Source of the DNA: Falsiruegeria mediterranea M17
Lineage (GTDB): Bacteria > Pseudomonadota > Alphaproteobacteria > Rhodobacterales > Rhodobacteraceae
Assembly (NCBI RefSeq): GCF_900302455.1
Contig: NZ_ONZG01000004.1
Location: 310,001-374,000 of the forward strand
DNA: 64,000 bases
Direction: 5' to 3'
The notes below the pieces were generated by a model. It ran no database searches and was not told where the DNA came from. It saw only the letters and a list, made by a program, of their open reading frames with translations. The translations under genes were made by a program, and so were the position numbers. This document shows, one piece after another, positions 22,174 through 35,064 of the stretch (positions within the stretch are counted from its first letter, which is position 1; every line of letters begins with the position of its first letter).

Positions 22174-23346
22174 TCAGCTTTTCACCACAAGGGCACGGGG
22201 AATGTCAGCGAGGGGCTGGGCACCGTCTGGGGTGACCACAAAGCTCTCGGTGATGGCGACGCCCCAATCCGGGGTCCAGAGGCCGGGCATCAGGTGGAAG
22301 GTCATGTTCTCCTGTAACGGCGTGGTGTCACCAGGGCGCAGGCTCATGGTGCGTTCGCCCCAGTCGGGCGGGTAGCTTAGGCCGATCGGGTATCCGGTGC
22401 GGTTGGCTTTGACGTAACCGGCGCGGGCAAAGCTGTCATAGACGCAAGCCGCGACCTCTTCGCAGGCCACGCCGGGGCGGGCGGCGGCAAAGGTGTCTTC
22501 GATGGCTTGCAGCACCGCCTCTTCCGCGCGGCGGATGTCGGACGGCACCTCGCCCAGGAACAGCGTCCGGCTGGCGGGGCAGTGGTAGCGGTGGTAGCAG
22601 CCCGATACCTCGAAATAGGTGGCCTCGCCGCGCACCAAGGGGCGGTCATTCCAGGTGATGTGTGAGGCCGAGGCCTCGAGGCCCGAGGGCGCGATTGGGG
22701 CAATGGCGGGGTAGTCACCCGCCAGTCCCGGCAGACCGGCGACGCCGGCCGCCTGCACCTCAGCCACCAGCTCATTCTTGGGCCGCCCCTCGCGGAACCC
22801 CTCGCGCAGGGTGGCGTGCATGTGCGCGGTCAACTGGCCCGCTTTGCGCATCATCGCCAGTTCCGCCTCGCTTTTGACCGCGCGCTGCCAGTTCACCAAC
22901 CCGGTGACATCGGCGATGGCGTCGCGCCCAAAGGCAGTTTCCAGGATGCGGTGGGACGCGGCGGAATAGTAGTAGTTGTCCATCTCGACCCCAAGCGCGC
23001 GGGTCCAGCCGCGTTCACGCAGGAGTGTGATCAACGCATCATACGGGTGGTGGTCGGGGTGCTGGACGTGCTCTTCGGGCCAATCAAAGAGGTTGTCGTC
23101 CCCGATCCAGGTGGTCTGCGCCGCACCTGCCTTGTCCTGCGTGCGGCCCCACCAGAGCGGGGTGCCTGAGCTCGGGACGATGACCACTTGGGGCACGTAG
23201 AAGCTCCACCCGTCATAGCCCGTCAGCCAGGCCATGTTCGACGGATCGGCAACGATCAGTGTTTCAATCCCCTGCGTGGCCATTGCGGAGCGGGTCTTGG
23301 TCAGGCGGGCGTCGTACTCGGATTGCGAGAAATCTGTGGCGGGCAC
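22174..23346 (-). CDS. doeA: M24-fold hydrolase, ectoine hydrolase-like (DoeA/EutD)
   Basis: A 390-residue creatinase/prolidase-fold protein. The N-terminal domain opens SEYDARLTKTRSAMATQGIE and has the segment NMAWLTGYDGWSFYVPQ, which closely matches what I recall of ectoine hydrolases. The C-terminal pita-bread domain lacks the usual metal Asp pair: where M24 enzymes have DxG...D it has YFEVSGCYHRYHCPASRT. Metal-independent EutD uses a catalytic Glu in this region, and Glu246 here is the probable equivalent. Such an enzyme opens the ectoine ring to N-acetyl-diaminobutyrate. The usual partners (doeB, doeC, asnC) are absent; instead it ends a five-cyclase operon, 15 bases after the last cyclase. 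Another cyclic amidine or amide substrate is possible. Confidence 0.72.
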   Translation of the reverse strand: MPATDFSQSEYDARLTKTRSAMATQGIETLIVADPSNMAWLTGYDGWSFYVPQVVIVPSSGTPLWWGRTQDKAGAAQTTWIGDDNLFDWPEEHVQHPDHHPYDALITLLRERGWTRALGVEMDNYYYSAASHRILETAFGRDAIADVTGLVNWQRAVKSEAELAMMRKAGQLTAHMHATLREGFREGRPKNELVAEVQAAGVAGLPGLAGDYPAIAPIAPSGLEASASHITWNDRPLVRGEATYFEVSGCYHRYHCPASRTLFLGEVPSDIRRAEEAVLQAIEDTFAAARPGVACEEVAACVYDSFARAGYVKANRTGYPIGLSYPPDWGERTMSLRPGDTTPLQENMTFHLMPGLWTPDWGVAITESFVVTPDGAQPLADIPRALVVKS

Positions 23347-23361: not shown

Positions 23362-24339
23362 TCAGTCAGGCGGGGCAGACCGCCAGGTCAAAAGATGCGT
23401 CGTATGGGTTCCAGAAAACCCCCGCAGGGGGCCTGCTGTCTGGTCTGAAAACGAAAATTCGGGGTCGGTTCCGATCATCAAACGGGTGGCGTCGGAAATA
23501 CGGATCTCGTCCGGACCGGCCAGAGCCGCGACGCGGGCGGCCTTGTTCACGACGGTGCCAAAGAAATCCTCGCCGGTGTCGATGACCTCGCCGGTGTGCA
23601 GGCCGACGCGGATCTGGATGCGGGGTTCAGTAGACGTCTTTTGCATGCCGCGTTGCAGCTCTTGCGCGCAGACCATGGCAGCGCGGGCCGAGGTGAAGGT
23701 GCACATGGTGCCATCGCCGAGGGATTTGATCATGCGGCCACCGTTGGCTTCGACGCAGGCTTTGACCGCCTCGATGTGCTCGCCCACGCATCGGCTCCAT
23801 GTGACGTCTCCCACGGCTTGGGCAATCACCGATGAGCCCACGATATCGGTGAACATGACCGTGGCGACGCCGCTTTGGCCCTGCATCACGTTATCGGCGC
23901 GGGCGGCTTCGATCAGATCGTCCAGCGCGTGATGGTCGGCGCCCATCTTGTCCATGTTGGGCAGCGGGTTCGAGACATGCAGTTGCACCATGCGCCAATT
24001 GCCTTCCTCCAGATGTAGGACAAAGGTGAAGCGATGCAGGAATTGGCTGGCGGTGTTGGGAAACGTCAAGGTTGCCAGACAATGCGCCCAGGCCACGTCG
24101 CCGCATTCGAACGCTTCCAGCGCGTGCTCCTCCCAATCATAGTCGGGAATTTCCCGCACATGCTCGCCAAAACCCTGCCGAAACAACTGCCCCGACCAGC
24201 TTTCTCCTTCGGCCGAGCCCTGATAGCGAAGGTGTTCGGATCGCGAGAGCATGTTGGTCAATGTGGCCCCATCCTTGCGATGAACCGCATCGTTCCACCT
24301 GCGGACAACGGCGAGCACTTCTTGAGAGGGGCGGATCAT
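23362..24339 (-). CDS. NTF2-adenylate cyclase, array gene 1 (last transcribed)
   Basis: A 325-residue soluble protein with an N-terminal NTF2/SnoaL-like domain (about residues 1-135, RRWNDAVHRKDGATLTNML) and a C-terminal class III cyclase domain. All catalytic positions are kept: metal Asp in MFTDIVGS, Lys and the second metal Asp in MIKSLGDG, adenine-specifying Asp in EDFFGTVVN, and transition-state Asn and Arg in VNKAARV. It should therefore make cAMP. It differs from its four siblings at the C-terminus: the conserved EWQ end is replaced by LLTWRSAPPD. The ATG overlaps the previous stop by 4 bases, with GGAG eight bases upstream; a GTG nine bases earlier is an alternative. Confidence 0.9.
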   Translation of the reverse strand: MIRPSQEVLAVVRRWNDAVHRKDGATLTNMLSRSEHLRYQGSAEGESWSGQLFRQGFGEHVREIPDYDWEEHALEAFECGDVAWAHCLATLTFPNTASQFLHRFTFVLHLEEGNWRMVQLHVSNPLPNMDKMGADHHALDDLIEAARADNVMQGQSGVATVMFTDIVGSSVIAQAVGDVTWSRCVGEHIEAVKACVEANGGRMIKSLGDGTMCTFTSARAAMVCAQELQRGMQKTSTEPRIQIRVGLHTGEVIDTGEDFFGTVVNKAARVAALAGPDEIRISDATRLMIGTDPEFSFSDQTAGPLRGFSGTHTTHLLTWRSAPPD

Positions 24340-25310
24340 GTCTGCCACTCCAACTTGTGGATCATGTGTTCGCCATCCAGCCCTTTGAGGGGAACTGAAA
24401 GGGGCTCGGTAAAGGTGAATTTGGCAGTTCCCACCATGGTGCGGGTGGCGTGAGAGACACGGATTTCATCCGGGCCGCTGATCGCGGCCACTCTGGCAGT
24501 TTTGTTGACAACGGTGCCAAAGAAATCCTTGCCGGAATGAACAACATCACCTGTATGCACGCCGATGCGGACGCTCAGTCGAGGTTCTTGATGACCCCGG
24601 GCAAGTGTTTGCTGGATCGACATTGCGGCCTGCAAAGCCTCGGTGGCTGATGGGAAGACCGACATCGTACCGTCGCCCAGAGATTTGACAAGCTGGCCGC
24701 TGTGCTTGGTGACGCAACCCTCGATCATGGTCAAATGGCGTTGAACAATCTCTGTCCAGCGGCGGTCGCCCAGTGTCGCGGCAAGGGTGGTTGAATCGGT
24801 GATGTCGGTGAACAGGACCGTGACGATATCGGTGTGGGTTTCCGGCAGGTCCGAGGTCGAAGCCAAGGCGGCTAATTCATCCAGCGCCCGGTGTTCAACG
24901 CCATGCGTGTCGGCGTTAGGTTTGCCGACCGAGGCATGGCGGTGGAGGATTTTCCAGGCGCCGTCTTCCATCGTGAAGATCAGGGTGAAGCGAAAATCGA
25001 CGGGGATGGGATTGCCTTGCAACTCGATGCTGCGTTCGAATATGGCCCAGCCGATGTCGCCCGCCTCGAAGGCTTCACCGTGGGTTTCCTCGTCCACCAG
25101 AAAGGCAGGGGCTTCGTTGAAATGTGCCTCAAGCCCGTCGCGCAGGGAATTGCCGCTCCACCGCTCGTTCGGGGCTGTGCCGATGAACCGCAATTTGGCC
25201 GAGCGCGACAACAGGTTGCGCATCGCCTTGCCATCGCGTTGGCGGACCGCACGAAAGAAGCGCCGGGCCACGGCTTCGAGTTCGGGCGAGGGGGTGAAGG
25301 GGTCGCTCAT
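24336..25310 (-). CDS. NTF2-adenylate cyclase, array gene 2
   Basis: A 324-residue paralogue with the same design: NTF2/SnoaL-like domain (MSDPFTPSPELEAVARRFFR...) then a class III cyclase domain with LFTDITDS, LVKSLGDG, KDFFGTVVNKTARVA. The metal Asp pair, Lys, Asp, Asn and Arg are all present, so adenylate cyclase activity is expected. The N-terminal domain keeps a Trp/His-rich pattern (WKILHRHASVGKPN) shared with the others, which may form the ligand pocket. It overlaps both neighbours by 4 bases and ends LEWQT; the codons for Glu-Trp contain the GGAG that serves the next gene. Confidence 0.9.
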   Translation of the reverse strand: MSDPFTPSPELEAVARRFFRAVRQRDGKAMRNLLSRSAKLRFIGTAPNERWSGNSLRDGLEAHFNEAPAFLVDEETHGEAFEAGDIGWAIFERSIELQGNPIPVDFRFTLIFTMEDGAWKILHRHASVGKPNADTHGVEHRALDELAALASTSDLPETHTDIVTVLFTDITDSTTLAATLGDRRWTEIVQRHLTMIEGCVTKHSGQLVKSLGDGTMSVFPSATEALQAAMSIQQTLARGHQEPRLSVRIGVHTGDVVHSGKDFFGTVVNKTARVAAISGPDEIRVSHATRTMVGTAKFTFTEPLSVPLKGLDGEHMIHKLEWQT

Positions 25311-26281
25311 GTGCGCCAGTCCAGCTGATGGATCAGGTGTTCGCCTGCGAGGCCTTTCAGTTGAACCGATACGGGGTCGCCAAAGGCGAAGTCCGCATTG
25401 CCACCGACCATGGCGCGGGTGGGGTCCGAGACGCGGATTTCTTCGGGGGCGGCGGCTGCGGCCACGCGAGCGGCGGTGTTGACCACGGTGCCGATGTAAT
25501 CGCCATCTTTCTCAACAACGTCGCCGGTGTGGATGCCGACCCGGATCCTGAGGATCGGTTCCTGGGTTTGGCCTTGCATCCCTTGCTGAATGCGGGTGGC
25601 GGCATTCAGCGCGGCAGAGGCCGAGGCAAAGGATGACAAGGTGCCGTCGCCAAGCGATTTGACCAGCGTGCCGCCATGGGTTTCGACCGCGCCGGCAATG
25701 TCGGTCATGTGGGATTGGACGATATTGCTCCAGGCTGCGTCCCCGGTTGCGGCCGCCAAGGCAGTGCTGTCGACGATGTCGGTGAACATCACGGATGCGA
25801 TGCCGGTGTGGCCAAGATCCAGCGCCTCGGACTGCAGCGAGGCGGTCAGTTCCTCGATGCTGCGCGAGGTGTATCCCATCGCCTCCATGTTGGGTTTTGG
25901 GTTGGAATTGTGGATGTGCACGATGCGCCAGACGGCGTTTTCGAGGGCAAAGACGAAAGAGCAGCGGAAGGCCACGCTTTTGTCGGCGTCGGGCGCGATG
26001 ATGGTCATCGTCGCAAGCGCCCAGCCAAAGGACCCGGCCTCATATGCGGTGACTTCGAGGTTTTCGGGGACCAGAACCGCCTGGTCGTCGCAGAAGGCGG
26101 CAAAGGTCTTGTGAAAGTCGGGCTCGGTCAGCAGCTCGCCGTCATCGGAGCCGACATAGGTGATTGCAGCGGAGTGCGAGAACAGGTTGATCACCGGTTC
26201 GGTTTGGCGTGCCGCATAGGCGTGGAGCCAGCGTTTGGCGATGGCGGCCAGTTCCGGTGACAGTGTGAAGGGATCGCTCAT
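25307..26281 (-). CDS. NTF2-adenylate cyclase, array gene 3
   Basis: A 324-residue paralogue (MSDPFTLSPELAAIAKRWLH). The NTF2-like domain has AVWRIVHIHNSNPKPNMEAM; the cyclase domain has MFTDIVDS, LVKSLGDGTL, GDYIGTVVNTAARVA with the complete catalytic set. Its adenine-site loop reads DYIG while its siblings have DFFG or DMFG, and the N-terminal pocket residues differ, so ligand tuning between copies is plausible. The ATG at 26281 makes a 4-base overlap with gene 4; the GTG nine bases earlier is less likely. It ends LDWRT. Confidence 0.9.
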   Translation of the reverse strand: MSDPFTLSPELAAIAKRWLHAYAARQTEPVINLFSHSAAITYVGSDDGELLTEPDFHKTFAAFCDDQAVLVPENLEVTAYEAGSFGWALATMTIIAPDADKSVAFRCSFVFALENAVWRIVHIHNSNPKPNMEAMGYTSRSIEELTASLQSEALDLGHTGIASVMFTDIVDSTALAAATGDAAWSNIVQSHMTDIAGAVETHGGTLVKSLGDGTLSSFASASAALNAATRIQQGMQGQTQEPILRIRVGIHTGDVVEKDGDYIGTVVNTAARVAAAAAPEEIRVSDPTRAMVGGNADFAFGDPVSVQLKGLAGEHLIHQLDWRT

Positions 26282-27255
26282 GTCTGCCACTCCAACAGGT
26301 AGGTGGTATGCCGCCCTTCGAGCCCTTTGAGGTCAAAGTCTTTTGAGCCGGAAAAGACAAACCCCCCGGCGTTTCGGACGATCAGGCGGGTCGTGTCGGA
26401 TACTCGGATTTCCTGCGCCTGCGCGGTGGACGCGATCCGGGCTGCCTTGTTGACGACGGTGCCGAAGAAATCGTCGTGGGCCTGCATAACCTCGCCGGTG
26501 TGGATGCCGATGCGGACGGAAAGGTGGGGGTCTTGGGTGTTGTTGGCCAGGTTGGTTTGAATGGCACTGGCTGCCTCCAAACAGGTGCGGGCAGAGGGGA
26601 AAGAGGACATGGTGCCGTCGCCCAGAGACTTGACGAACTGGCCGTCATGTTCGGCGACGATGGCTTGGATCATGTTGAAATGGGCCGCGATGATGGGCGA
26701 CCAGGCGCGGTCACCAAGGGCCGAGGCGAGCGCCGATGACCCCACGATGTCGGTGAACATGATCGAGGCGAGGCCTTCGGTTTGATCCAATGCAAACCCA
26801 TCCTTTGCAGCCGCAACCAGATCGGCGATTGCGGTCTGATCCCGGCCGGTGAACTCTTCGTTTGGAGTGGGGACCGAACCATGGCGGTGGACGATCTTCC
26901 ATGCGCCGTCTTCGAGCGTAAGGATCAGGGTGGAGCGAACCAGGAACGAGCGGTCGGGATGGGGCTCGAACGCGATCTCGTGTGTGAAGCAAGCCCAGCC
27001 GGTGTCGCCGTTCTCATAGGCCTCGGCAAAGTGTTCGATGTGCGTCGTCACCGGTGGGATGACGCCAAAGAACGCACCGACGCCGTCGCGTACGGCTTGG
27101 CCGGACCAGACCTCATCCTCGCCGGTGCCGAAAAACAGCAGGTGGTCCGCATCCGTCATCAGGTTGCTCAGGTCGTTGGGTCGCCGGTTCGGGATCGCGT
27201 CGATCCAGCGCCGCGCGATGGCCAGGATTTCTGGCGAGGGGCGGATATCGCTCAT
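26278..27255 (-). CDS. NTF2-adenylate cyclase, array gene 4
   Basis: A 325-residue paralogue (MSDIRPSPEILAIARRWIDA). The NTF2-like domain includes DGAWKIVHRHGSVPTPNEEF; the cyclase domain includes MFTDIVGS, FVKSLGDGTM, DDFFGTVVNKAARIA, with all catalytic residues kept. Linker sequence GRDQTAIADLVAAAKDGFAL connects the domains at about residues 140-160. ATG 27255 overlaps the stop of gene 5 by 4 bases, with GGAG in the last codons of gene 5 as ribosome site. It ends LEWQT. Confidence 0.9.
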   Translation of the reverse strand: MSDIRPSPEILAIARRWIDAIPNRRPNDLSNLMTDADHLLFFGTGEDEVWSGQAVRDGVGAFFGVIPPVTTHIEHFAEAYENGDTGWACFTHEIAFEPHPDRSFLVRSTLILTLEDGAWKIVHRHGSVPTPNEEFTGRDQTAIADLVAAAKDGFALDQTEGLASIMFTDIVGSSALASALGDRAWSPIIAAHFNMIQAIVAEHDGQFVKSLGDGTMSSFPSARTCLEAASAIQTNLANNTQDPHLSVRIGIHTGEVMQAHDDFFGTVVNKAARIASTAQAQEIRVSDTTRLIVRNAGGFVFSGSKDFDLKGLEGRHTTYLLEWQT

Positions 27256-28223
27256 CCCTGCCACTCCAGCCGATAGGTTGTATGTTGGCCCTCCAGCCCT
27301 TTTAGGTTGATTTTGGCGGGTTCAGAGAAACGGAACTGCGGCGCTCCGCCGACCATGATGTGAGTGGCGTCTGACAGGCAGATTTGGCCCGGTGCCGTGA
27401 TCGACGCGATACGGGCGGCTTTGTTGACTACGGTGCCGAACATGTCGCCGTCGTGTTCCACGAGATCGCCGGTGTGCAAGCCAATGCGGATTTGCAGGCG
27501 CGGCTCAGCGGTGCTGTCTGAGATGATTTGCTGGAGTTCGGAGGCAGCGGTCAAGGCAGCCGTGGCCGAGGGGAACGCCGACATGGTGCCATCGCCCAGA
27601 GTTTTGACCAGCGTGCCGCCATGACCCTCGAGGACGTCGCCCACCTGCTTCATATGTGCCTGCACTGCGGCGGACCAGCGGGCATCGCCGAGCGTTTCTG
27701 CCAGCGCCGAGCTGCCCGCGATGTCGGTGAACATGATCGTTGCCATGCCCGTGTGCGCCAGATCAACCGGCGTGGCCAAGGCGGCCTTAAGCAGGTCTTC
27801 GACGCCTCGGGATTGGTAGCCTAGCGCCTCCATGTTTGAGACAGGATTCGAGTTGTGGACATGGACGATGCGCCAGACGCCCCGTTCCAGATGCAGTACA
27901 AAGGTCGAGCGAAAGGTGATTTCCTTGCCGTTTTCCAGCGATACCCGCCCGCCGAACCATTCTACCCAACCCAGTTTCCCGCATTCAAAGCCGCGGAAAT
28001 CGTCCTTATCCCATGAGAATTTTGGGATATCCTCCATATACCCACCCATGCCCCGGCGCAGGGTATCGTCACGCCAGATCTCGTCATGGGATGAGCCGAT
28101 GTAGCCTAAGGAGGAGTCTTCGGAGAAGAGGTTGAGCACCGCCTCTTTGTCCCCCGCCGCATAAGAGCGGAGCCAGCGGCGAACGATGGCTCCAAGCTCG
28201 GGGGAGGGGGTGATGTCGCTCAT
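27252..28223 (-). CDS. NTF2-adenylate cyclase, array gene 5 (first transcribed)
   Basis: A 323-residue paralogue, first of the five to be translated. NTF2/SnoaL-like domain at about residues 5-128 (GVWRIVHVHNSNPVSNMEAL), linker to 158, cyclase domain 159-290. Catalytic positions: Asp167 (MFTDIAGS) and Asp211 (LVKTLGDG) for metals, Lys207 and Asp260 (GDMFG) for adenine recognition, Asn267 and Arg271 (VNKAARIA) for the transition state. No membrane span, so it is cytosolic. It begins 16 bases after the UPF0173-type hydrolase gene with only a weak ribosome site, unlike its followers, and ends LEWQG overlapping gene 4. Confidence 0.9.
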   Translation of the reverse strand: MSDITPSPELGAIVRRWLRSYAAGDKEAVLNLFSEDSSLGYIGSSHDEIWRDDTLRRGMGGYMEDIPKFSWDKDDFRGFECGKLGWVEWFGGRVSLENGKEITFRSTFVLHLERGVWRIVHVHNSNPVSNMEALGYQSRGVEDLLKAALATPVDLAHTGMATIMFTDIAGSSALAETLGDARWSAAVQAHMKQVGDVLEGHGGTLVKTLGDGTMSAFPSATAALTAASELQQIISDSTAEPRLQIRIGLHTGDLVEHDGDMFGTVVNKAARIASITAPGQICLSDATHIMVGGAPQFRFSEPAKINLKGLEGQHTTYRLEWQG

Positions 28224-28239
28224 GGCATCGCTCAGGACA

Positions 28240-28932
28240 TCAAAGCGTGATGGCCTGCATCACCTGCGGTTCGATCACGTCCACGCCCGGAAGGCCTGCA
28301 CGGAGGTCATCGGCGCTCTGTTCCAGGATCGGAAAGGTGCCATAGTGGCAGGGGATCACGGTCTTGAAGGCGAAGTACCGCTTGGCGGCATAGGCTGCGC
28401 CCTTCATGTCCATGGTGAAATGACCGCCCGCTGACAGGATGCCGATGTCAGGTTTGTAGTAATCCCCCATCCAGTCCATATCGGCCATGATGTCGGTGTC
28501 GCCCGAGACGTAGAGCATCTTGCCCTCAGACGCGATCATGAACCCAACCTCGGTCCCGCCAGTGCGGATGCCTTCGGGCGTGTTGAAGGTCGAGGAATGC
28601 GAGGCCGGAACCATCGAGACTTTGACGCCGTTCAGATCCACGGTGCCGCCCTTGTTGAAGCCGACGGTTTCGATGCCCTCGGTCTCGCCCCAGTGGCCCA
28701 TCAGGTCGTATTGGCCCACAACCGGTACGCCCAGCTTCTTGGCCAGTGGCAGGACATCGACAACGTGGTCGAAATGCACATGGGTCAGCAGGATGTGGGT
28801 GGCGCCCGCGACGGCGGCGTCGTGTTGATCCTCGGGCAGGGCGGGATTGCCGGTCAGCCAGGGGTCGATCAATATAACCTGTCCTGCGGTTTCAATGCGA
28901 AAGCTGCCGTGTCCCAGCCAGATAATATCCAT
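28240..28932 (-). CDS. Metallo-beta-lactamase-fold hydrolase (UPF0173 family)
   Basis: A 230-residue MBL-fold protein, MDIIWLGHGSFRIETAGQVI at the start, with the metal motif HVHFDH (residues about 53-58), the later Asp in VSGDTD and a C-terminal His in IPCHYGTFPIL. These give a full two-metal site. UPF0173 proteins are uncharacterised metal-dependent hydrolases. ATG 28932 has GGAG eight bases upstream; the longer frame to 28989 overlaps the divergent gene. It is the first gene of the seven-gene cyclase operon, so a cyclic-nucleotide phosphodiesterase role is worth testing (inference only, since class II phosphodiesterases share the fold). Confidence 0.87.
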   Translation of the reverse strand: MDIIWLGHGSFRIETAGQVILIDPWLTGNPALPEDQHDAAVAGATHILLTHVHFDHVVDVLPLAKKLGVPVVGQYDLMGHWGETEGIETVGFNKGGTVDLNGVKVSMVPASHSSTFNTPEGIRTGGTEVGFMIASEGKMLYVSGDTDIMADMDWMGDYYKPDIGILSAGGHFTMDMKGAAYAAKRYFAFKTVIPCHYGTFPILEQSADDLRAGLPGVDVIEPQVMQAITL

Positions 28933-28987
28933 GAATGAATCTCCGTTTCCTGTTGGCACGAGCCTAACACCGGTTACATAGAAATCC

Positions 28988-29653
28988 ATGGATTGGTTGC
29001 GCGAAATTGATGGCTACTGTGAGCGATTGGGGCCTGAATACTGGGCCGAGCCGATCAATGCAGTGACAAATGCGGCCTTTTTGGTGGCCGCGTTGATCAT
29101 GTGGCGGCGGACCAAAGGGATTGCGATTGCCCGTGTGCTGGCGGTGATCCTGGCGAGCATCGGTGTGGGCAGCTATCTGTTTCACACCCATGCCCAAGTC
29201 TGGGCTGCGATTGCAGATGTGACACCGATCCTGGGGTACATTCTGGTCTATATCTATGCGGTGAACCGTCATGTCTGGGGGCTGCGGGTGCTGCCTGCGC
29301 TGGGCCTGACGGGGCTGTTCTTTCCCTATGTCGCAGCGACTTTGCCGTTGTTTCAGATGGTGCCGGGGGTGGGGGATTCCGCCGGGTATGCGCCGGTGCC
29401 CTTGCTCATTTACATCTACGCGGTCCTGCTGCGTCACCGCGCGCCGGACACGGCGCGGGGGTTGGCCATCGGGGCCACGATCCTGGTCGCCTCGATCACG
29501 TTTCGGGCTTTGGACGAGCCGGTTTGTGGCGCGATCCTGATGGGCACGCATTTCATGTGGCATATCTTGAACGGGATCATGTTGGGCTGGATGATCGAGG
29601 TTCTGAGGCGTCACATGCTGGGGCTGACTAGGGTATCTCAAACCCCTGAATGA
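28988..29653 (+). CDS. Alkaline ceramidase-like membrane hydrolase (CREST superfamily)
   Basis: A 221-residue protein with seven predicted spans. Motifs match alkaline ceramidases: YCERLGPEYWAEPINAVTNA at the N-terminus (Glu and Asn), GSYLFHTHAQVWAAIADVTP in the middle (Ser, His, Asp) and GTHFMWHILNG at the end (two His). These hold a zinc ion in the characterised enzymes. It is divergent from the cyclase operon with 55 bp between the starts, and overlaps the convergent TetR gene by 26 bases at the 3' end. Ceramides are uncommon in this group, so the true substrate may be another aminolipid or amide lipid (inference). Confidence 0.8.
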   Translation: MDWLREIDGYCERLGPEYWAEPINAVTNAAFLVAALIMWRRTKGIAIARVLAVILASIGVGSYLFHTHAQVWAAIADVTPILGYILVYIYAVNRHVWGLRVLPALGLTGLFFPYVAATLPLFQMVPGVGDSAGYAPVPLLIYIYAVLLRHRAPDTARGLAIGATILVASITFRALDEPVCGAILMGTHFMWHILNGIMLGWMIEVLRRHMLGLTRVSQTPE

Positions 29654-33266: not shown

Positions 33267-33504
33267 GGGGGAGTATTAAAACGTTCGATTGAAAATGACA
33301 ATGAACCTCAACAAGCTGTGATCAAAGGTCATGAACTGGCTTCCGACCCATATGCTACTTCAGTGGTTCCGGAAATGCTCTATCCGGGCTTTCCCAAAAG
33401 CGAGACAGGGATGGCGGCAATGCGACCGGATGGCTTGAAGGGTGCCCATATGAAGAAGATAGACTATAAGTACTCTTATTTGGGGCATGCTGCGGGAGAA
33501 TTTG

Positions 33505-35064
33505 ATGGATCAATTCGGGCGATTTCTTTTGGCGCGGCCCTATTGGTTAATCGTGGTTGTTTTAATAGCGTTAGTCGGCCTTCCCGCCGCGATTTGGCTG
33601 GACCTGCGCAATCTCTCTGATGAAACGTTGCGTCGGCAGGCTACCAGCCTGAACAGTATTATCACATCAGTGCGGACCTACTACGCAACAAATGTCGTAT
33701 CTCGGGTGGTCAACTCCAATACGGAAACGCAGGCGTTGCACAACTACCTTGACGTTAACGGCGCGATCCCGATCCCGGCGACACTGTCGCTTGAACTGGG
33801 AGAGAAGATCGGGGCAGTGGAAGGCGACGTTGAGTATCGCTTTGTCTCTGATTATACCTTCGCAAACCGGCCTCCCCATAAGCTTGACGAATTTGAACGC
33901 AATGCGTTGATCAAGTTTCGAACTGATCCTATGGATCATGATTTTTTTGTGAATTCGACCGGGAATGTGTGGAACCGCGAGATTACCTTGGCTACGCCGG
34001 TGGTCATGGCAGGAGGGTGTGTCCGTTGTCACAATTCCCATGCCGAAAGCCCAAAGAAGGATTGGAAGGTTGGTGACGTTCGTGCGCTGCAGACGGTTAC
34101 CGTTCGTCAGCCCGTCGCTCTCAACCTGTGGTCCTTCAAGTGGTTGCTGCTCTACTTTACCGCTGCTGGAACCATGGGCTTTTTCTTTGCTGTCATGCAG
34201 TACAAGCTTGCTGCCAGTTTCAGCCGGATGAATGACGAATTGACCGCGAACAACGAGTTTCTGGCAGGCATATCGTTGAAGATTTCCAAGTATCTTTCCC
34301 CACAAGTCTACAGATCAATTTTTTCTGGAGAGAAAGACGTTCATATCTCGACCGAGCGAAAGAAGCTGACGGTCTTCTTTTCCGACATTAAGGATTTCAC
34401 AGCGACGACCGAGCGCATGCAGCCAGAAGAATTGACGGCTCTTTTGAACGAGTACTTTACAGAAATGTCCCTCATCGCCGAGGCTCATGGCGCAACAATC
34501 GATAAGTTCATCGGCGATGCCATCGTTGCTTTTTTTGGTGATCCTGAGACCAGAGGTGCCGCCGAAGACGCGCGGGCGTGTGTACGTATGGCTCTGGATA
34601 TGCAGCTGCGGCTGGCCGAATTGGCCGAAGTCTGGAACCAAAAAGGGTTGGAGCACCCGTTCAAAGCCCGAATGGGGATCAACACTGGGTATTGCAATGT
34701 TGGAAACTTCGGGTCTGACGATCGGATGGATTACACGATAATTGGAGCTGAGGCGAACTTGGCCGCGCGACTCGAGAGCATCGCGGAGCCCGGTGGCATT
34801 GTAATGAGTTACGAGACCTACGCCCACGTTCGTGACATCGTCCAGGCGGTGCCGTCCGAAGCTGTTCATTTTAAGGGAATTGCACGTGAAATTACCCCTT
34901 ACCACATTACGAATATTCCGGTTTCGGATAACAAAGGGACAAGCTTTTCGCCGAGAGAAGAAGACGGCAAATTGACAGTGGATTTGGCGGCCCTGGATGA
35001 ACCTGCGCGGGCGCGGGTTCGCACGGCCATTCGCGAAGCTCTGGGCAAGGCTCAGGCATCTTAA
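33505..35064 (+). CDS. Adenylate cyclase with DUF3365-type haem-c sensor domain
   Basis: A 519-residue membrane cyclase. Span 1 (about residues 12-32), a periplasmic DUF3365/Tll0287-like domain (about 40-205) with a CxxCH haem-c motif (CVRCH, Cys172-His176), span 2 (about 212-232), then a short linker and a class III cyclase domain. Catalytic residues are complete: Asp294 (FFSDIKDF), Lys334 and Asp338 (DKFIGD), Asp409, Asn418, Arg422. It should make cAMP in response to a redox or gas signal at the haem (inference). ATG 33505 has GGGAG upstream; ATG 33487 is possible. The gap 33267-33504 holds its promoter but no clear gene. Confidence 0.88.
   Translation: MDQFGRFLLARPYWLIVVVLIALVGLPAAIWLDLRNLSDETLRRQATSLNSIITSVRTYYATNVVSRVVNSNTETQALHNYLDVNGAIPIPATLSLELGEKIGAVEGDVEYRFVSDYTFANRPPHKLDEFERNALIKFRTDPMDHDFFVNSTGNVWNREITLATPVVMAGGCVRCHNSHAESPKKDWKVGDVRALQTVTVRQPVALNLWSFKWLLLYFTAAGTMGFFFAVMQYKLAASFSRMNDELTANNEFLAGISLKISKYLSPQVYRSIFSGEKDVHISTERKKLTVFFSDIKDFTATTERMQPEELTALLNEYFTEMSLIAEAHGATIDKFIGDAIVAFFGDPETRGAAEDARACVRMALDMQLRLAELAEVWNQKGLEHPFKARMGINTGYCNVGNFGSDDRMDYTIIGAEANLAARLESIAEPGGIVMSYETYAHVRDIVQAVPSEAVHFKGIAREITPYHITNIPVSDNKGTSFSPREEDGKLTVDLAALDEPARARVRTAIREALGKAQAS

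Follow-up and report, generated by a model that had tools for sequence, protein, structure and literature searches.

A 64,000-nucleotide stretch of the Falsiruegeria mediterranea M17 genome (contig NZ_ONZG01000004.1, positions 310,001 to 374,000; hereafter the window) contains on its minus strand, between positions 28223 and 23362, five intact paralogous genes arranged head to tail, each of which encodes an NTF2/SnoaL-type domain followed by a class III cyclase domain. They belong to old, long-separated lineages, and their comparison with relatives suggests exchangeable metabolite sensors and not redundant copies. The array genes are under purifying selection, and copies have been gained, lost and swapped as whole genes at a conserved chromosomal site. 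With a confidence a little above even, our best reading is that they encode separate homodimeric cytosolic cyclases, which would differ in their NTF2 inputs and feed one cyclic AMP (cAMP) pool.

Gene layout, domains and catalytic residues

The first-pass annotation, made from the letters of the sequence, had described five tandem paralogues of 323–325 residues joined by ATGA overlaps, and this is confirmed by the coordinates in the list of open reading frames (ORFs) of the window and by start codons placed by alignment. From upstream to downstream, the genes are cyclase 1 (lineage A, 27252..28223), cyclase 2 (lineage C, 26278..27255), cyclase 3 (lineage B, 25307..26281), cyclase 4 (lineage D, 24336..25310) and cyclase 5 (lineage E, 23362..24339), all on the minus strand. 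The ORF list favours upstream GTG starts for cyclases 2, 3 and 5, but the alignment points to ATG instead; ATG is the start codon in all five at the positions of the conserved N-terminus (28223, 27255, 26281, 25310 and 24339), giving proteins of 323, 325, 324, 324 and 325 aa, respectively. Each of the four junctions between cyclases is a 4-base ATGA overlap.

Both of the domains that had been proposed are present in all five proteins, with SnoaL_3 (PF13474) and Guanylate_cyc (PF00211; 52–76 bits as against 21.9) above their curated cut-offs. The NTF2/SnoaL-type domain spans approximately residues 8–125 and is followed by a short linker and the class III cyclase domain at approximately residues 157–319. 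The six catalytic residues that the annotation had reported as kept are likewise invariant in all five, i.e. Asp167, Asp211, Lys207, Asp260, Asn267 and Arg271 in the numbering of copy 1, which we take to be the two metal Asp residues (167 and 211), the Lys and Asp for adenine and the transition-state Asn and Arg. Among 94 distinct full-length proteins, five of these residues are kept in every protein and the Asn in 93. The exception is encoded in a metagenome-assembled genome (MAG) labelled Acidimicrobiaceae (L109:8004-8984), whose gene has the same two-domain layout, 29 % identity over the full length, and a Val aligned to the transition-state Asn.

The full-chain model of copy 1, built from a 74-row alignment, has a mean predicted local distance difference test score (pLDDT) of 84.9 and a predicted template modelling score (pTM) of 0.53, with two confident domains. 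When the whole model was used as query in Foldseek, the cyclase domains of Ma1120 and Rv1900c ranked first, with a TM-score by target of 0.95 for Ma1120, and the NTF2 domain of copy 1 modelled alone (68 rows) reached a pLDDT of 93.9 and a pTM of 0.87. The proteins belong to the class III adenylate cyclases by their Guanylate_cyc domain, the six residues and the cyclase fold, the fold being taken from the copy 1 model only, and to the NTF2-like/SnoaL_3 superfamily by the profile in all five and the NTF2 fold in the copy 1 model. Judged by these features, each of the five enzymes is probably able to make cAMP.

Lineages, exchange and distribution of the array genes

Protein identity among the five window copies is 39–47 %. 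In a tree of 93 proteins (IQ-TREE, LG+G4, with a long-branch warning from the tool), the window slots fall into five lineages, with bootstrap/Shimodaira–Hasegawa-like approximate likelihood ratio test (SH-aLRT) values of 99/91 for A, 96/99 for C, 100/100 for B, 99/94 for D and 99/96 for E. Across the Rhodobacteraceae, the search for further arrays that had been proposed with the first-pass annotation gave 12 tandem arrays with 48 genes. If x denotes a gene outside the six named lineages (A–F), their composition is A-C-B-D-E in the window genome and G001, A-C-B-x-E in G002, A-C-D-E in Tropicibacter, A-B-C-F in G034 and Shimia, A-x-x-C-F in Ruegeria XHP0148, A-C-F in R. marina, C-D-E-x in S. saemankumensis, x-C-E in Cribrihabitans, x-x in S. 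zhoushanensis and A-C-x-F in G504. Two genes of one named lineage occur in none of the 12, as against a mean of 6.4 arrays in 10,000 shuffles, which ignore the kinship of the arrays and treat each x as a separate lineage; this result mainly means that recent tandem duplicates are absent. Identity within an array does not exceed 57 % (11 arrays). The ratio of non-synonymous to synonymous substitution rates (dN/dS) between orthologues in the genus is 0.07–0.18 in 12 of 13 pairs, the 13th (slot 4 versus G001) having a dS of 0.02, too low for dN/dS to be read.

Exchange is evident within the window itself. Compared with the congener G001, the ten 150-base bins from 25350 to 23851, which run through cyclase 4 into the first part of cyclase 5, show 93–100 % DNA identity, eight of them at least 98 %, as against 77–91 % for the cyclase genes outside this tract, and dS is 0.02 for cyclase 4 and 0.30–0.78 for the other four; on these figures the tract has the signature of a recent exchange between species. 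In a second congener, G002, slot 4 is occupied by a gene of another lineage (53–65 % identity), the break coinciding with the gene ends as far as 150-base bins can resolve, and in Tropicibacter sp. Alg240-R139 the whole gene of slot 3 (cyclase 3) is absent. In relatives that are free of these cyclases, the gene for the UPF0173 hydrolase, which flanks the array of the window upstream, lies near tadA (in view at 18 of 27 loci with 1.5 kb flanks; L173 and L174, which carry remnants, were excluded). Therefore, the array fills a conserved site. At 37 further loci, several of which are the same gene fetched twice, a cyclase occurs with no UPF0173 gene in view.

Sequence can also pass between neighbours. 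In S. zhoushanensis (L167:7297-9206), a conversion tract covers the catalytic core of two neighbouring cyclases (codons ~201–270, i.e. about 70 codons), with 92–98 % DNA identity as against 43–68 % before the tract. Conversion is otherwise rare, as a 60-base stretch at 90 % identity or more was found in 1 of 103 same-genome paralogue pairs versus 21 of 4084 different-genome pairs, and concerted evolution of the cyclase domains within arrays was discarded after showing no consistent effect across 10 lineage pairs.

Across the 12 arrays, 34 of 36 junctions lie within −6 to +8 bases. The last codons of the upstream gene contain a Shine–Dalgarno-like core in 26 of 34 genes that precede a cyclase versus 13 of 60 terminal or solitary genes (Fisher P=2.7e-7, not corrected for relatedness); in the window, the core is found at the end of slots 1, 2 and 4, while slot 3 has GGAC and slot 5 none. 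The codons for C-terminal Leu-Glu-Trp therefore appear to double as a ribosome-binding site, which may couple translation and help exchange.

An array is present in all four genomes of the genus that were examined, with 5, 5, 5 and 4 copies, which argues against chance. Beyond the genus, overlapping family, order and phylum samples were searched, with scoring limited to five candidates per genome. Of the 394 genomes in the family sample, 16 have between one and five matches at E 1e-50 or better; 14 of these genomes match at full length, and in two (G279 and G298) the genes are partial or broken. The order sample has matches at 1e-40 in 30 of 390 genomes, all within the same family, including a cyclase-only match in G458 and broken genes in G451 and G497. 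In the phylum sample, 4 of 398 genomes match, the window genome and G058 (same family) at full length and two as cyclase-only. Named relatives among the best 80 of 566 matches are Tropicibacter, Ruegeria, Shimia, Seohaeicola, Cribrihabitans and Sulfitobacter; several MAGs are also among these 80, including one each labelled Spirochaetaceae, Rhizobiaceae-group and Acidimicrobiaceae.

Copy number ranges from 1 to 5 across species. Five relatives are broken or truncated, of which those of G279, G298 and G451 are sole copies at the UPF0173 site, and those of G497 and the second gene of G545 lie elsewhere. No broken copy or fragment was found in the 12 arrays, although arrays were recognized by their intact copies, so that a badly decayed copy could escape. 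A stop flagged inside one S. zhoushanensis copy (G139) was dismissed, as the gene is open to profile position 320 and the flag marks the gene's terminal stop codon, which falls shortly ahead of where the match ends. A dispersed NTF2-cyclase of Ruegeria marina and one of genome G377 (L081:6772-7737 and L169:7483-8448) are near-identical proteins with end branches of 0 and 0.006, which suggests a recent transfer.

Proposed mode of action and competing explanations

For the mode of action, we infer a single transcript, catalytic activity, cAMP as the product, the dimer type, and both ligand binding and ligand control. Each chain, with its N-terminal NTF2/SnoaL-type domain, short linker and class III adenylate cyclase domain, would be a cytosolic sensor enzyme; two chains, in the simplest case of the same kind, would dimerize and form catalytic sites from Asp, Asp, Lys, Asp, Asn and Arg, and a small, lineage-specific ligand in the NTF2 pocket would move the dimer between a less active and a more active form. 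Co-translated from one message, all five copies would supply one cAMP pool, while the genes themselves evolve as cassettes, with complete genes being acquired, lost or exchanged at one place in the chromosome. Lineages A (G030), B (G609 and G618), C (G206 and G253) and E (G230 and G612) each occur as the sole full-length NTF2-cyclase found in a genome, and homodimers should therefore suffice.

The mean protein difference within lineages is 0.31 for the NTF2 and 0.37 for the cyclase domain, as against 0.63 and 0.49 between lineages, and columns conserved in both of two lineages with different residues amount to 105 of 298 in the NTF2 and 36 of 374 in the cyclase domain (lineages A, B, C and E; D was excluded as too small), a pattern that may be read as old specialization of the NTF2 input with a common cyclase output; the contrast is, however, partly circular, since the lineages were defined on full-length trees, and is the first of several points that weigh against separate homodimeric sensors. 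Among orthologues defined by slot, a weak independent check, dN of the NTF2 domain is below that of the cyclase domain in just 9 of 13 pairs. Of the separate domain trees that the first-pass annotation had called for, the NTF2 tree recovers all five lineages, whereas the cyclase tree recovers none, though approximately unbiased (AU) tests on the cyclase domain reject no lineage (P=0.275 for A, 0.361 for E, 0.493 for C, 0.631 for B and 0.704 for D, with the constrained tree even better for B and D). Lineage D was never seen alone and occurs only in arrays of four or five. In the copy 1 model the linker has a pLDDT below 50 at residues 143–156, and with a pTM of 0.53 the arrangement of the two domains is not predicted. 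Finally, the NTF2 model matches the CaMKII hub, an oligomerization domain, which warns that this domain may oligomerize instead of sensing. Whole-domain swapping between lineages, which the discrepancy between the two trees suggested, was rejected on the AU tests.

Class III cyclases are established to require two chains, and co-translated paralogues might preferentially or partly heterodimerize, so that one enzyme would integrate two ligands. We regard this as possible, though on the improbable side. The overlapping genes look translationally coupled, cyclase domains are more alike between lineages than NTF2 domains, and the tract of S. zhoushanensis shows that two neighbours can come to have a common cyclase core. 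However, the composition of the arrays varies freely, so that there is no fixed partner, and obligate mixed dimers are disfavoured because, for four of the five lineages, some genome has yielded no other such cyclase. Where the first-pass annotation had pictured mixed dimers, a requirement for them is thus not supported, lineages A, B, C and E each having been found alone in at least one other genome. Nor do the proteins belong to the obligate heterodimeric (C1/C2 type) class, as each of the five chains has all six residues and four lineages occur alone. Unlikely in our estimate is also a plug-in sensor rack, in which cassettes whose last codons form the ribosome-binding site of the next gene would be swapped between species at one site, and whose products would form mixed dimers as well, one cAMP pool integrating several metabolites combinatorially.

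The NTF2 domain might instead be a mere dimerization or hub domain as in CaMKII, the copies differing in basal activity or protein partners and not in ligand. By sequence profile, its best match in the Protein Data Bank (PDB), at E 1.7e-5, is a putative CaMKII-type association domain from bacteria (3h51), and Foldseek also pairs the NTF2 model with structures of the CaMKII hub. Still, the Foldseek matches, among which are AtzH and SgcJ, also include pocketed NTF2-like proteins and enzymes such as CatM, which was solved with a substrate mimic, and the lineage-specific conserved residues counted above are more than a dimer clamp needs, which makes a hub without sensing a rather doubtful explanation. 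The proposal of the first-pass annotation that different pockets receive several ligands gains indirect support from these columns and from the one-of-each arrays, with the hub role as an alternative for the NTF2 domain. Neutral amplification, by which redundant copies without a function of their own come and go, would fit the variation in copy number and the five broken or truncated relatives (G451, G497, G298, G279 and G545), and the annotation had named such signs as those that would speak for it. Copy number does vary between species, but the broken genes are single or dispersed and never within one of the 12 arrays, dN/dS is low in 12 of 13 pairs and recent duplicates are absent, so that we consider this very improbable. 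What holds is that all five genes are intact and under selective constraint, that their NTF2 domains have diverged strongly and that they share one probable operon.

Related systems and genomic context

Many bacteria have dozens of class III cyclases, and the redundancy of these is an open question. In the window and its relatives, old separate lineages of input domains with a common output are brought together in a probable operon, each lineage once, and pass between species as whole genes. The array offers a ready set of small, soluble, testable candidate sensors, and setting species with a single copy against those with five can reveal what is detected by each sensor and whether there is any gain from mixed dimers.

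Among known systems, those class III adenylate cyclases that carry a regulatory domain at the N-terminus come close; the nearest solved cyclase domains are those of Ma1120 of M. avium and Rv1900c of M. tuberculosis, the best PDB matches by profile and Foldseek. They have the cyclase fold in common with the window genes, which have the six class III residues. These matches exclude the N-terminal NTF2/SnoaL_3 input domain, however, whereas the window has five such genes in one array. A sigma factor with an NTF2/SnoaL-type domain is similar in that such a domain is fused to and regulates a signalling output, but there the output is a sigma factor and the domain is C-terminal and of the SnoaL_2 type, in contrast to the N-terminal SnoaL_3 domain of the window. 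The M. tuberculosis proteins Rv1318c, Rv1319c and Rv1320c are presumably HAMP-containing membrane cyclases. As in the window, they are neighbouring cyclase paralogues, and Rv1319c and Rv1320c are stated to form an operon (PMC3961136). Two genes in the operon and three paralogues stand against five genes here, and there is no NTF2 domain. In Sinorhizobium meliloti, the excerpted account (PMC4222275) gives the paralogous class III cyclases CyaD1, CyaD2 and CyaK one plant-borne stimulus and one cAMP regulator, Clr, with a phenotype that needs the triple cyaD1/cyaD2/cyaK mutant. Several paralogous class III cyclases feeding one cAMP regulator are the likeness, while these are receptor-like with a CHASE2 domain and not NTF2, as far as the excerpt describes them (PMC13001267). 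The large ESAG4/GRESAG4 family of Trypanosoma brucei also comprises class III cyclases, whose N-terminal domains are proposed to sense ligands and for which dimerization is regarded as the control step, but they are eukaryotic membrane receptors with Venus-flytrap domains (PMC6027212).

No paper that links SnoaL/NTF2 to class III cyclases turned up in the openly licensed literature, including that on Roseobacter/Ruegeria, which is weak evidence of absence; for bacterial heterodimers, the search led to a paper on a eukaryotic guanylate cyclase. While class III cyclases as such are known, as are NTF2 folds and small operons of cyclases, no description of five diverged NTF2-cyclases in one swappable array was found in the papers searched.

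The array is probably part of an operon of seven genes, because it is closely flanked on the same strand at both ends. The UPF0173 metal-dependent hydrolase gene (28240..28989, minus strand; NF001911, 223 bits, cut-off 144) lies 16 bases upstream of cyclase 1 and is probably the first gene, and an M24/creatinase-type gene related to the ectoine hydrolase DoeA (22174..23346, minus strand; Pfam Peptidase_M24 and Creatinase_N) lies 15 bases downstream of cyclase 5 and is probably the last. The true start of the UPF0173 gene is possibly 28932; the listed ORF overlaps a divergent ceramidase-like gene by two bases, and if translation began at 28932, about 55 bases (within 28932–28989) would remain for divergent promoters. 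Of the distinct UPF0173 sites that bear a cyclase, 13 of 28 have the M24 gene, versus none of 27 cyclase-free ones (Fisher P=4e-5, not corrected for relatedness), the initial counts of 13/31 and 0/29 having been reduced by removal of the repeat loci L228, L231 and L232 and the remnant loci L173 and L174. The M24 gene may have a role alongside the cyclases or simply accompany them. Its assignment as DoeA was rejected, as it scores 506 bits with TIGR02993, below the cut-off of 613; another gene of the source genome is a better candidate with 579 bits, also below the cut-off.

The source genome (G000) has 27 Guanylate_cyc places. A two-domain profile search found nine places at E 1e-20, with a whole-length match only in the five array genes. 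There are also ten places with a cNMP-binding domain, a family wider than Crp, which are possible readers of cAMP; 27 and ten places make a large cyclic-nucleotide repertoire for one genome. A further class III cyclase with a Tll0287-like N-terminal domain (33487-35064, plus strand) lies about 5 kb from the array and has an 87 %-identity match near the Tropicibacter array.

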